Below, piece by piece: positions 13,877 to 36,240 of a stretch of 64,000 nt of DNA. This stretch comes from Cyanobacteriota bacterium SRBZ.bins.94.201705 (GTDB lineage Bacteria > Cyanobacteriota > Cyanobacteriia > Cyanobacteriales > Cyanobacteriaceae). The stretch is taken from positions 432,196-496,195 of the forward strand of contig JAUQQP010000044.1 in the NCBI GenBank assembly GCA_030549855.1, written 5' to 3'. Below the pieces are notes generated by a model, which was not told the origin of the DNA, did not search any database, and worked only from the letters and a program-made list of their open reading frames with translations. Made by a program: the position numbers and the translations under genes. Each line of letters begins with the position of its first letter. Position 1 is the first letter of the stretch.

Positions 13877-13948
13877 GGCGGAGACAAAGTTTCCGTTCAC
13901 TCCTCACACCATAAACCGCTCCTTTGGCGGGGGCGGATTCCTGTTTTT
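13877..13948 (+). ncRNA. yfr1: Small RNA Yfr1
   Basis: The ultraconserved Yfr1 core ACTCCTCACAC lies at 13899-13909 in a single-stranded linker between two hairpins, which is the defining architecture. The 5' stem is 13879-13885 with 13889-13895 (loop AAA). The 3' stem is 13116+800 style CCGCTCC 13916-13922 with GGGGCGG 13130+800, that is 13930-13936, followed by a T-rich tail, so it doubles as terminator. A minus-10 TACAAT at 13865-13870 places the start near 13877. Yfr1 is an abundant cyanobacterial sRNA that pairs with mRNA leaders of outer-membrane proteins and others. The position upstream of trxA matches the conserved location. Ends are inferred from the structure. Confidence 0.92.
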
Positions 13949-31277: not shown

Positions 31278-34200
31278 ATGATGGGTGGGAATAATCCTAA
31301 GACAGAAAACAAAAATAATGAAGAAATGCATTTAGACTCCCAATTGCAAGGATGTTGTCAATTCCTACTGGAAAATTATGTGGATGGAATTGCCTTAGTG
31401 AAGGAGGAAAAATTTATCTACGTAAACAAAAGCTTTAGGCGACTTCTGGGTTATCAACAGGAAGAATTACTGGGAAAACACTGGTTGTCAATATATACCA
31501 CCCCCGAAAGACTAAAAATCCAAAGGGAAATACTCCCCCTGTTTCGGCAAAGGGATTTGTGGCGGGGAGACGTTAAAGCCTTAAGAAAAAACCAAGAAGA
31601 AGTCTGGGTAGAAGTCTGCTGGCAAAAAACCCCAGGGAATATTATCGCCTGTTACTATAAAGACGTCACCGACAGGAAGAAAATAGAAGAAGAATTAACC
31701 CGCAATCGTGACCTATTGGCTATAATCTCTAAAGCCCAATCTGAGTATATAACTAATGGAGACATTCAAAATCTCTTTGACAGTCTGCTGGAAAAACTAC
31801 TCCTGTTGACTGACAGCGAATTTGGTTTTATCGGCGAATTAAAATACCCCCAACAGGTAAATGACGATAACCCTCCCCAGGAAGATAAGCCTCGTCTCAA
31901 AATACACTCCCTAGGCAGCATTTCCCGAAACAATGGCAAATCTATACATCTCTACGATGAAAAACAGGGAAGAGGAATGGAAATGTCTGACTTCAACAAC
32001 CTCTTCGGACAAGTTATCCTCACTGGAAAACCAGTCATCTCCAACGATTATAGCACTGACCAGCGCAAAAAAGGCACCCCCAAAGGACATCCCCCCCTCT
32101 CTACCTTTATGGGATTACCCTTTATCCATCAAGGCAGAATAATAGGGATGGCTGGTTTTGCCAATCGTCCCGGCGGCTATAATGAAAAACTGGTGCAGTA
32201 TCTACAACCCTTTGTCTCTGTCTGTAGCAATCTGATTGCCTCCCACAAAAGCGATACCCTCCGCAGAGAGTCGGAGAAAAAATTACAGCTGCAGGAAAAA
32301 GAAGCCAGAAAACAGGAAAAATTCATCAGAAGTCTCTACAAAATTTGTGCCTCCCCCCTTCTAGACTTCCAGAAAAAATTACAAGTCATTTTCGCCTTGG
32401 GAAGAAGATTTTTCAGTATGGATGTAGCCATGCTGACAGAAATAGACGATGCCTATTGTTATGTGAAAGCATGGCAGTCTAGTAAAAAATACCGACAGTT
32501 ATTCCAGGGTGAAGTTAAAATCCCCAACGAGCATGCCCCATGCTTTATAACATACCAAAGTAAAGAGCCTTTTGCCATAGAATCCCTCAGCCAGTCTAAC
32601 TACTCCACCCCCCTCCGCCATTTGCGTGTTGAATCCTATGTAGGCGCCAGGGTTGAAGTTTTTGGTAATACATGCGGTACTCTTTGTTTCCTCTCCATTC
32701 ACCCCAAAAGGACAAAAATCACTAGTACAATCAAAGAACAAGTACGTTTAATGGCAAGATGGGTGGGTTACGAGTTGGAAAAGGAAAAGTCTCAAACCCT
32801 CATTGAGAATCAACTAAAACAAGAAATTCTCCTCCGCCGAATAATAGAAGACATTAGACTTAGTATAGACTTTGAGCAATTATTTCAAAATGCTGCAACT
32901 ACCCTCCTCAATGTCTTCCAGGCTAATCGCTGTCAGATATTCACCTACGACAACTCTCTCTCCCCTCCATTGAAACTGGAAGCAGAAGCCTGTAGTGAAA
33001 ACACCCCACCCATGTCTAGTTGTCTGATAGACTTAAGTCAAAACAACCCCCACTATGATGCCGTTGTCTCCTCCGACAGGGTGGTGGTTAGCAACAATGT
33101 CTACGAAGACCCACTCCTCAAGCCAATGATACCATACTGTCAAAAAATTGGATTAAAATCCATGTTGGCAGTGCGCACATCCTATAAGGGGGAGGTAAAC
33201 GGAATTATAGGTTTACATCAGTGTGATAGGTTTCGAGACTGGACGACAGAAGAAATCTCCCTCTTAGCTATAGTATCAGAACAGATGGGTATTGCCATTA
33301 GTCAAGCTAAACTTTTACAACAGGAAAAACAGCAAAGGGAATTATTGGAAAAACAAAACAAGGCATTGATAGAGGCGGAGAAAAAAGCTAAGGCAGCCAG
33401 CAAGGCAAAAACCGAATTCCTCGCCTGCATGAGTCATGAAATGCGCACCCCCCTTAATGGTATCATTGGCATGGCACAACTGTTACTTAGTACTGATCTT
33501 ACCCCCGAACAACGAGATTTTGTAGAGACTATCAATCAGAGTGGCAATATTCTTCTAACAATCATCGGAGACATCCTCGACTTGGTGAAAATAGAATCCC
33601 AGAAAGTGGAATTACAGTCAGAAGAATTCAACATCCACCACTGTATTGAGTCTGTGATTTCCACTGTCGAATTGGAGGCGGAGAAGAAGAAACTAAATCT
33701 GGTTTATATTGCCAATCCCAGAAGTCATTGTTGGTTTCGCGGCGATGTCAACCGTCTCAGACAAGTAATCTTAAACCTGGTTAGCAATGGTGTCAAATTT
33801 ACCCCCTCCGGAGAGGTAATAGTCAGATTCACGGTGGAAGATAAGGGAAATACAACAGCATTAGTGAAAATCTCCGTAGAAGATACAGGTATAGGCATCC
33901 CCCCCCAGCAAATGCAACGGATTTTTGAAGCCTTTACTCAGGTTGACTCTTCTTCCACTCGTCGTCATGGTGGCACTGGTTTGGGTTTGACTATTAGCAA
34001 AAAACTGGTAGAATTGATGGGGGGTGTTATCACAGTGGAAAGTCAGGTAGGTAAAGGGTCAAAATTTACAGTACTTTTACCCCTAGAAAAAGTATCCCCC
34101 CCCAAAGAGGAAGATAAAACTAGTCTAACCTCTTTAGCGCCACTGCAAGAAAAAACAGCAGTGATTATCTCCGATTTCCCCTCCACGGTGGAAATGCTAG

Positions 34201-34934
34201 TTTACCAAACACAATCCCTTGGATTGAAAATTCAAACCTGTCTCAGTGGCCAATTCTCCCCCTCTCTGCTAAAGGAGGCTGCCGTGGTAATAGTTGACCA
34301 TCCCCTGTTAAACTATGACCATCAAGCTTTATTCCACCTTCTCAGACAACACAATCCCAATCTTTACTTGTTATGGTTAATCCCTGTGAGTTTGAGAAAT
34401 CAACCACATCCCTCCCAAAAGGATAGCAAGTCTCGTTTAATTTCTAAGCCGGTAAAACAGTTTCAAGTTTACAACAGCCTAAAAACACTTCTATTCCCCG
34501 CCGCTAACACAGAAACAAAGGCAGACAATGACAGTCAGGGTAAACCGTCAATGAAAATTTTGTTAGTAGAAGACAACCCCGTCAACCAAAAAGTAACCAA
34601 GCTGATGTTGAAGAAACTGGGTTATACGGAGGTAGACGTAGCCGGTGACGGCAATGAGGCAGTGGAAATGGTACAACGAAACCACTATGATATCCTGTTA
34701 ATGGATGTGCAAATGCCGGGGGTAGACGGCATCACCGCCACTCGTCAGATTCGCAACTTGGGAGACAGAATTCACCAACCCTGGATTATAGCCATGACTG
34801 CCTCTGCCATGGAGGAAGATAGGATGGAGTGTTTACAAGCCGGTATGAATGATTATCTCCCCAAGCCGGTAAAGATTGAAGATATAGCCAAAGCCTTACA
34901 GGATGTTTCTGCCTCTGTTAGAGGGGATGGCTAA
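31278..34934 (+). CDS. Hybrid sensor histidine kinase, PAS-GAF-GAF-GAF-HK-REC-REC
   Basis: Cytoplasmic hybrid kinase of 1218 residues. Residues about 25-135 are a PAS domain ([20 protein letters not shown]). GAF-like domains follow at about 150-325, 350-500 and 525-690, the last with [15 protein letters not shown] see no bilin-binding Cys motif. The dimerisation domain has His720 in [17 protein letters not shown]. The ATPase domain contains [17 protein letters not shown] and [11 protein letters not shown] divergent receiver spans about 960-1075 (Asp in VVIVDHPL, Lys in ISKPVK, only one N-terminal acidic residue), and a canonical receiver lies at about 1094-1210 with Asp1143 in LLMDVQMPG. No membrane helices. 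The signal and partner are unknown. Confidence 0.92.
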
Positions 34935-35224: not shown

Positions 35225-35242
35225 TTTACATTTGTTAATTTT
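35225..35242 (+). promoter_or_regulatory. HLR1-like site, unit 1
   Basis: TTTACATT (35225-35232), two bases, TTAATTTT (35235-35242). The first half fits the RpaB-binding HLR1 consensus perfectly and the second is partial. TATGAC at 35268-35273, 25 bases downstream, is a possible minus-10. Confidence 0.5.
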
Positions 35243-35279
35243 CACCACCGCGGCGGCAATTCCATGTTATGACAGGGGT

Positions 35280-35345
35280 ACGGGCGGCAGGAGAAGTGAC
35301 TACCAGGGTGGTGGTTGCGATAAATTTAATTGCGATTTAATTTCA
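35280..35345 (+). ncRNA. Candidate sRNA, family member 1 (degenerate)
   Basis: Downstream of the HLR1-like promoter is GGCAG (35286-35290), loop GAGAAGTGA, CTACC (35300-35304), then AGGG. The hairpin has one mismatched pair compared with units 2 and 3. No T-run follows closely; the next strong terminator is at 35443-35474. The 3' end given is a guess. This looks like the most diverged of the three copies. Confidence 0.4.
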
Positions 35346-35442
35346 ATATATACCTACAGGAGGGAAGTATGACTTGAGGTATTAGTGATTCGAGGGGCAA
35401 TAGTAAATGAAAATTAGTTAAAATAAAAGCTCCCTTAGGAGC

Positions 35443-35474
35443 AAGGCCAGTCAGCGGAGGATGGCCTTTTTTTG
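35443..35474 (+). terminator. Terminator between units 1 and 2
   Basis: AAGGCCA pairs with TGGCCTT around a 12-base loop, followed by a seven-T run. A small hairpin GCTCCC-TTAG-GAGC (about 35429-35442) precedes it. It could end a transcript from unit 1. Confidence 0.7.
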
Positions 35475-35476
35475 TC

Positions 35477-35494
35477 TTTACATTTCTTGATGTT
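35477..35494 (+). promoter_or_regulatory. HLR1-like site, unit 2
   Basis: TTTACATT (35477-35484), two bases, TTGATGTT (35487-35494). A minus-10 TAGAAT at 35521-35526 lies 26 bases downstream, the position expected for RpaB acting as activator. Confidence 0.55.
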
Positions 35495-35532
35495 TTCTTC
35501 TAAAGGGGGCGCGGTTGTGCTAGAATGATGTT

Positions 35533-35584
35533 ATGGACGGCAGGTAGGGAGAGACTGCCAGGGGGGCTCCTGGGCATTTTTTTA
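35533..35584 (+). ncRNA. Candidate sRNA, family member 2
   Basis: Short predicted transcript from the TAGAAT promoter. GGCAG (35539-35543) pairs with CTGCC (35555-35559) around an 11-base purine-rich loop. The 3' bases of that stem also begin a second stem CCAGG / CCTGG (35558-35562 with 35569-35573) followed by seven T, which is a terminator. The two hairpins share bases, so only one can form at a time. The same 5' hairpin recurs in units 1 and 3. I cannot assign it with certainty to a named family; Yfr2-type RNAs are one candidate to test. Confidence 0.55.
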
Positions 35585-35946
35585 ATGATAAATATTTTAT
35601 ATAAATAAGCGAGAAATTAGTAAGGAAAAGTGGGATATGGTATTGCAAAATGATGGTTAGGAGTGTTTTATTCATCTATTTACTGCTAATATTAATCAAA
35701 TAGGTCTTATTGTTAGATACATTTTTATTACATAAACATCAATAAGGCACAAAAGGCCAGTTTGCCGGGGATTCCCTCCTAAATTGCCATTTGCCTGTTA
35801 ACATAAGCCGTAATATTTGTTAAATTCGGCCAGATTCATCTAAGCCGTGAAGCATGAAGCTCCATCTCCTATAAGAGCAGTTCACTTTTTCCCTAGTTAC
35901 CTGCTGTTGTCCCAGACACCCCACATTCCCCCGTTACGACTTCTAC

Positions 35947-35964
35947 TTTACATTTCTTAATATA
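35947..35964 (+). promoter_or_regulatory. HLR1-like site, unit 3
   Basis: TTTACATT (35947-35954), two bases, TTAATATA (35957-35964), and a minus-10 TAGGAT at 35990-35995, 25 bases downstream. The arrangement is the same as in units 1 and 2. Confidence 0.55.
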
Positions 35965-36001
35965 TATAGCCAAGGCGCAATTGCTGTGGTAGGATAGAGG
36001 T

Positions 36002-36057
36002 GTTGGACGGCAGGAGAGGTGACTGCCAGGGCGGAGCATGGGTAAATTTTTATAGAT
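36002..36057 (+). ncRNA. Candidate sRNA, family member 3
   Basis: GGACGGCAG at 36005-36013, loop GAGAGGTGA, CTGCC at 36023-36027, then AGGGCGGAGC and a T-rich AT stem (AATTTTTAT...ATAAAAATT) that may terminate it. From minus-10 to stem the sequence and spacing closely follow unit 2. The loop is purine-rich with an AGGAGA-like core. Confidence 0.5.
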
Positions 36058-36210: not shown

Positions 36211-36240
36211 TTGACAAAGAAGGAAAAAGGCTGATAGGCT
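36211..36240 (+). promoter_or_regulatory. Possible psbB promoter
   Basis: TTGACA at 36211-36216, then 17 bases and a weak minus-10 (ATAGGC). This would give a leader of about 180 bases for psbB. The minus-35 is perfect but the minus-10 is poor, so this is tentative. Confidence 0.35.

Follow-up and report, generated by a model that had tools for sequence, protein, structure and literature searches.

A genus-restricted, highly expanded family of predicted short intergenic RNA genes with a covarying hairpin and two promoter classes in a cyanobacterium

Results

We analyzed a window of DNA (the whole stretch under study, 64,000 nucleotides in length) in which 3 similar units lie upstream of psbB. 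We conclude, with a probability of roughly 80%, that these units belong, as type I, to a new family of short intergenic RNA genes, which is restricted to one genus and extremely expanded within it. The genes are predicted to be about 50 bases long, and we infer from the sequence that the copies are transcribed and where their transcripts would start and end. The copies share the features by which bacterial small RNA (sRNA) genes are recognized: each has its own promoter and a conserved structure, lies between genes, and is independent of the gene downstream.

Three units upstream of psbB

The units were found at window positions 35225-36057 on the forward strand, in the place and order given in the initial annotation, with a box resembling the HLR1 motif, a −10 hexamer and a stem following each other in each unit. 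The box of unit 1 (TTTACATTTGTTAA, 35225-35238 +) is followed by a weak −10-like hexamer, TATGAC (35268-35273 +), that fails the −10 test, and by an RNA that our covariance model matches with 57.7 bits (35282-35334 +, stem starting at 35286). The stem of this unit, GGCAG/CTACC, has one broken pair, and the run of T residues (T-run) is absent; CTGCC had been reported for all units and is not what is read here. With its broken stem pair, poor −10 and missing T-run, the unit 1 RNA is probably a decaying copy. Units 2 and 3 look intact in their promoters and first hairpins. In unit 2, the box (TTTACATTTCTTGA, 35477-35490 +) and the −10 hexamer TAGAAT (35521-35526 +) precede a type I RNA at 35535-35583 + (68.4 bits), which consists of GGAC, a stem (35539-35543 pairing with 35555-35559) around an 11-base loop (35544-35554, GTAGGGAGAGA), a second hairpin, and a T-run at 35577-35583. 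Unit 3 carries a box that is exactly the family consensus (TTTACATTTCTTAA, 35947-35960 +), the −10 hexamer TAGGAT (35990-35995 +), and a type I RNA at 36005-36051 + (67.3 bits) with GGAC, a stem (36009-36013 pairing with 36023-36027) around the loop GAGAGGTGA (36014-36022), a weak second hairpin, and a T-run at 36047-36051. In these 2 units, 29-30 bases separate the end of the 14-base core box from the −10 hexamer; the previously given spacer of 25-26 bases is correct when an 18-base HLR1 is counted instead. Allowing up to 2 mismatches, the window contains 6 matches to the box TTTACATTTCTTAA where 0.95 would be expected, and no sequence among 100 shuffles had as many as 6.

Copy number, subfamilies and distribution

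The first additional copies in the genome of the window (G000, 2.87 Mb) came from a pattern search, and many more were found there and in the sole congener available (G001, a fragmented draft) with R1, a covariance model built from 10 copies. R1 describes the RNA part alone and begins downstream of the promoter. A second subfamily, type II, in which CCAAGACA replaces CCAGGG after the stem, was modeled separately (R2). Taking the union of both models at 25 bits or more, we count at least 76 copies in G000 (40 of type I and 36 of type II) and at least 50 in G001 (16 and 34, respectively); these numbers depend on the threshold and are lower bounds, as limited numbers of candidates were scored and G001 is fragmented. 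That the repeated architecture is not expected by chance, as had been argued from 3 units, is borne out by the same layout in the at least 76 copies of the genome.

Outside the genus, no convincing match was found in the sampled genomes (2 sets of relatives, 40 and 30 genomes; 293 genomes of the order; 386 of the phylum; these samples overlap). One other genome, G023, gave marginal matches only, with E-values of 0.03 and 0.0097 (the E-values of our models are rough). An exact pattern had no match in viral contigs, nor in GTDB contigs, among which near relatives of the window's genome are possibly not included, and a plasmid search gave no convincing match. The family was not found in Rfam 15, nor was a published description found in a partial search of the literature.

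A hairpin supported by covariation

In an alignment of 121 copies, 99.3% of the cells for the 5 stem pairs hold a standard pair, and in 57 cells both sides have changed, a combination that none of 500 shuffles equaled; control structures slid by 1-3 columns showed little covariation. Inside the loop there is an extra pair, as position 2 and position −3 are Watson-Crick partners in 117 of 122 copies (C-G in 47, U-A in 36, A-U in 34), compared with a mean of 39.6 and a maximum of 61 in shuffled controls. The loop classes GA..GUGA, GU..GAGA and GC..GG[GU]A, which seem arbitrary at first sight, are explained by this one further base pair. The first loop position is G in 120/122 copies and the last is A in all 122, the latter partly by construction since an A was required when stems were located; in an alignment made without this rule, it is A in 117/118. 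In every copy except one, G or U precedes this last A. These alignments predict a hairpin in which a stem of 5 pairs leads to an asymmetric G / (G/U)A element, then to the covarying pair, and is capped by an apical loop made up mostly of purines. When folded with standard parameters, only 40 of the 122 copies form this hairpin with a probability above 50%, and the favored fold is often one in which CUGCC is drawn into an extended terminator hairpin.

Of 126 copies, 98 have a T-run downstream of the hairpin. Many type I copies carry a second short hairpin ahead of the T-run, for which no convincing covariation was found. Outside the hairpin, GGAC and CAGGG (type I) and CAAGACA (type II) are highly conserved. 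The T-run is followed in both types by a weakly conserved A/T-rich block, with TCAA or GCAA at a constant distance of about 20 bases from the start of the T-run (e.g., locus L080, downstream of 2929 −); in one decayed copy (L239, G000 C50:9687), this block and the box are kept and the hairpin is lost. A leader peptide (AGGAG...GTG) was considered and rejected, being possible in only one class of type I loops; the remaining classes of loop lack a start codon.

Two promoter classes

Promoters are not part of the models, so that finding them next to the copies is an independent test. R1 yielded 76 test copies from both species. The box lies 28-32 bases ahead of a −10 in 33 of them, a TTGACA-like −35 is present with a spacing of 16-19 bases in 30, and a single copy has both; control positions at the same loci gave 1/13548 for the box and 93/13548 for the −35. 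Leaving out the 10 training copies, the counts are 26/66 and 28/66, respectively. Two classes thus stand side by side, one with a −10, a box about 30 bases upstream and no −35, and the other with a canonical TTGACA −35 and no box. Within G000, the box class accounts for 24 type I copies and one type II copy, and the −35 class for 11 and 25, respectively.

The initial annotation had called the box HLR1-type and the units a multicopy sRNA family controlled by RpaB. HLR1 is KTTACAWW-N2-KTTACAWW, and its activating position is about −66 to −45 (PMC13421787). The consensus of 37 boxes is TTTACATTTCTTAA(T/C). It contains the first half-site, KTTACAWW, with TTTACATT strongly conserved, and the 14-base box would lie at about −56 to −43 if transcription is assumed to start 7 bases past the −10. 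The second half-site is not found after N2: the consensus continues as TCTTAA(T/C), which places CTTAA one base out of register. Because the box fits just the first half of HLR1, control of the box-class copies by RpaB is plausible and no firmer than that; if it exists, it would not reach the −35 class through this box. The HLR1 designation therefore suits the first half of the box and not the second, and it does not extend to about half of the family, which is boxless with a plain −35. Of the description as an RpaB-controlled multicopy family, the multicopy part holds far beyond 3 units, with one promoter per copy. Canonical HLR1 sites are also present in G000. By eye, one was seen close to an ORF resembling phycocyanin beta and another close to an ORF resembling IsiA/CP43; a third, which matches the canonical HLR1 exactly (TTTACAAAAATTTACATT), immediately precedes the −35 of a type II copy (L314 / L109, G000 C47:10841).

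Genomic position and inheritance

We weighed whether the copies might be REP- or MITE-like dispersed DNA repeats, with hairpins serving as terminators or nucleoid sites and with promoter-like sequence that is incidental. Such repeats would account for many dispersed intergenic copies, some of them decayed, for a preference for 3′ gene ends, and for the fact that 16 close pairs of copies are convergent (41-349 bases apart, many with type I facing type II) and none are divergent. These pairs are situated on C7, C13, C14, C19, C21, C29, C30, C38 and C39 of G000, and on C41, C58 and C73 of G001. The comparison of the 2 species speaks against recent mobility, as 41 of 53 G001 copies adjoin the orthologue of a gene that flanks a G000 copy, on the matching side and strand (some share a G000 partner, leaving 37 distinct ones). 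The RNAs of syntenic copies have a median identity of 0.75, while their 100-base flanks (0.54 and 0.50) are at the random level. We curated 35 pairs of orthologous copies. All 35 match in type, and 18 of the 19 with an assignable promoter class match in that class as well; stem pairing was maintained by changes in both arms at 10 loci, and both partners of the loop pair were replaced 8 times. Since position, structure and promoter type of many copies are conserved across the 2 species, we take them to have been kept by selection since the species split. Stable positions amid randomized flanks, covariation around an asymmetric hairpin, and 2 mutually exclusive, precisely spaced kinds of promoter that are conserved between orthologous copies are not what a REP- or MITE-like repeat predicts, and neither terminal inverted repeats nor target-site duplications were seen by eye; we regard this explanation as unlikely.

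A different possibility is that the copies are leader or attenuator RNAs of downstream genes, psbB included, in which CUGCC switches between the hairpin and a terminator. CUGCC can indeed pair either with the upstream GGCAG or with the terminator arm, and folding favors the latter, for instance in unit 2. In 52 of 77 copies, the downstream ORF runs in the opposite direction, so the copies are not leaders. At psbB itself, about 560 bases separate the gene from the kinase gene in the sister species G001, with one decayed remnant of the array between them, yet the TTGACA segment closer to psbB is retained there. This segment, TTGACA followed by GATAGGCT (window 36211-36240 +), is common to G000 and G001, and is likely to be the promoter of psbB, independent of the sRNA copies. 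On this evidence, a leader or attenuator function is highly improbable. In the remnant (3′ part of L254 and L307, on C100), a box is followed by AAAAGGGGTGACTGCCAGGG, and the −10 and the 5′ stem arm are lost. The ORF upstream of the array (31278-34934 +, 1218 aa), which reads like a hybrid sensor kinase, has a G001 orthologue with 83% identity.

The Pfam content of 20 flanking genes is diverse and without a theme (hybrid kinase, M61 peptidase, RPE65-like, efflux protein, tRNA synthetases, SRP54-type GTPase, MlaE, porin, GH57, RRF and RibD). The link of the units to psbB is incidental; the earlier emphasis on an adjacent photosystem gene loses its meaning with such diverse neighbors of other copies and a single decayed remnant in the sister species. 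Conservation in relatives, the absence of which had been named as a refutation, was found for the hairpin and the promoter class at syntenic G001 loci, while of the psbB array the sister species keeps the decayed remnant. Altogether, the copies look like old, independently promoted small-RNA genes that are not tied to psbB.

Relation to known small RNAs

An identity with Yfr2, which had been raised as one candidate, did not survive comparison with Rfam, which gave no match in the unit region at the gathering cut-off and no cyanobacterial sRNA family there at E-values up to 10. The genome's own Yfr2/Cyano-1 (RF01701) RNA lies elsewhere, at G000 C11:81630-81697 (L285, about 1131-1198 −). Relatives of Yfr2 might neutralize Yfr1 by pairing with its conserved motif, and 2 observations would suit such a role for the units: complementarity is complete between one type I loop (GAGGAGUGA) and UCACUCCUC of Yfr1, and Yfr1 is in the window. 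We nevertheless consider this scarcely credible. The mean duplex energy of type I copies with the Yfr1 seed is −9.7, no better than the −9.9 obtained with the reversed seed, which led us to reject a decoy acting through the loop. The RNA at C11:81630 is a true Yfr2-type RNA with GTGTGAGGA and TCGAAACACGGCAAGACTCC; the motifs of Yfr2, the 5′ unpaired, Yfr1-complementary GTGTGAGGA and the central loop CGAAACA.GGCAAGAC, are both found in it and neither occurs in our family. Its loop also has CAAGAC, as does the CCAAGACA of type II, probably by chance. Yfr1 itself was located at 13878-13939 + (RF01116, 41.9 bits) with its conserved UCACUCCUCACACC motif.

The family is like NsiR1, FopS and Yfr2 in kind, and is unlike them in sequence, structure, copy number and promoter organization. 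NsiR1 of Nostoc, of about 60 nt, has 12 copies arranged in tandem, every one with a DIF1 promoter of its own (PMC9045159). It resembles our family as a short multicopy cyanobacterial sRNA in which each copy has its own promoter with a shared regulator-associated motif, but it occupies one locus, uses DIF1 and is heterocyst-specific, whereas we find at least 76 dispersed copies in 2 subfamilies and 2 promoter classes, with another sequence and structure. In Bacteroides, FopS comprises 14 dispersed copies, to which the RNA-binding protein RbpB binds (PMC11697453). It resembles our family as a dispersed set of paralogous sRNAs, in its case protein-bound and conserved among related species; FopS differs in having 14 members, belonging to another phylum and having demonstrated mRNA targets, while the present family has 5 times as many members. 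Yfr2 is likewise a multicopy cyanobacterial sRNA (RF01701; PMC2662882, PMC6778093), with a strong, light-stimulated promoter in Synechocystis (PMC2662882), but its conserved motifs and structure differ from those found here. PsrR1 of Synechocystis, an sRNA of the RpaB regulon, base-pairs with photosystem I and phycobilisome mRNAs (PMC13421787); the box of our family departs from the second half of the canonical HLR1, and the family has no Rfam match.

Discussion

How might so many copies act? We tentatively prefer a mechanism in which the copies would feed a single RNA pool whose hairpin is recognized by a protein, as a sponge or scaffold. What favors recognition by a protein is the pattern of change: paired bases have been exchanged together with their partners, while G1 and A9, which are unpaired and adjoin the stem, hardly vary. 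The 2 promoter classes could then supply a basal, constant share and a regulated share (perhaps by light or redox, through an RpaB-like factor) of the same pool. The complete picture, in which some 80 independent units of 2 types and 2 promoter classes jointly make up a single regulated pool, its hairpins having a new motif and binding a new protein partner, is more doubtful. A CsrB-type sponge of CsrA was rejected, as PF02599 is absent from G000, G001 and 13 relatives, and was found in control genomes.

The main rival, which we rate only slightly lower, keeps the same genes and promoters and differs in the mode of action: the RNAs would be trans-acting antisense sRNAs, pairing with mRNAs through GGAC, CAGGG or CAAGACA, or through the apical loop, with paralogues that share or divide targets. 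The multicopy sRNAs NsiR1 in cyanobacteria and FopS in Bacteroides act in this manner, and the high conservation of these 3 motifs outside the hairpin fits it. A shared seed in the loop would be predicted if the loop did the pairing, yet the apical loop sequence varies while its closing pair covaries.

If transcribed, the family would be among the most multiplied independently promoted sRNA families reported in bacteria (compared with 12 copies for NsiR1 and 14 for FopS, a limited comparison), in a small genome of 2.9 Mb and limited to one genus among the genomes sampled. The strongly covarying hairpin with its nearly invariant G and A could then serve as bait for a new cyanobacterial RNA-binding partner; CsrA, the best-known sponge partner, is absent. 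The family would, if transcribed, offer a natural test of why bacteria multiply their sRNA genes, be it for dosage, two-tier regulation, or division of targets.
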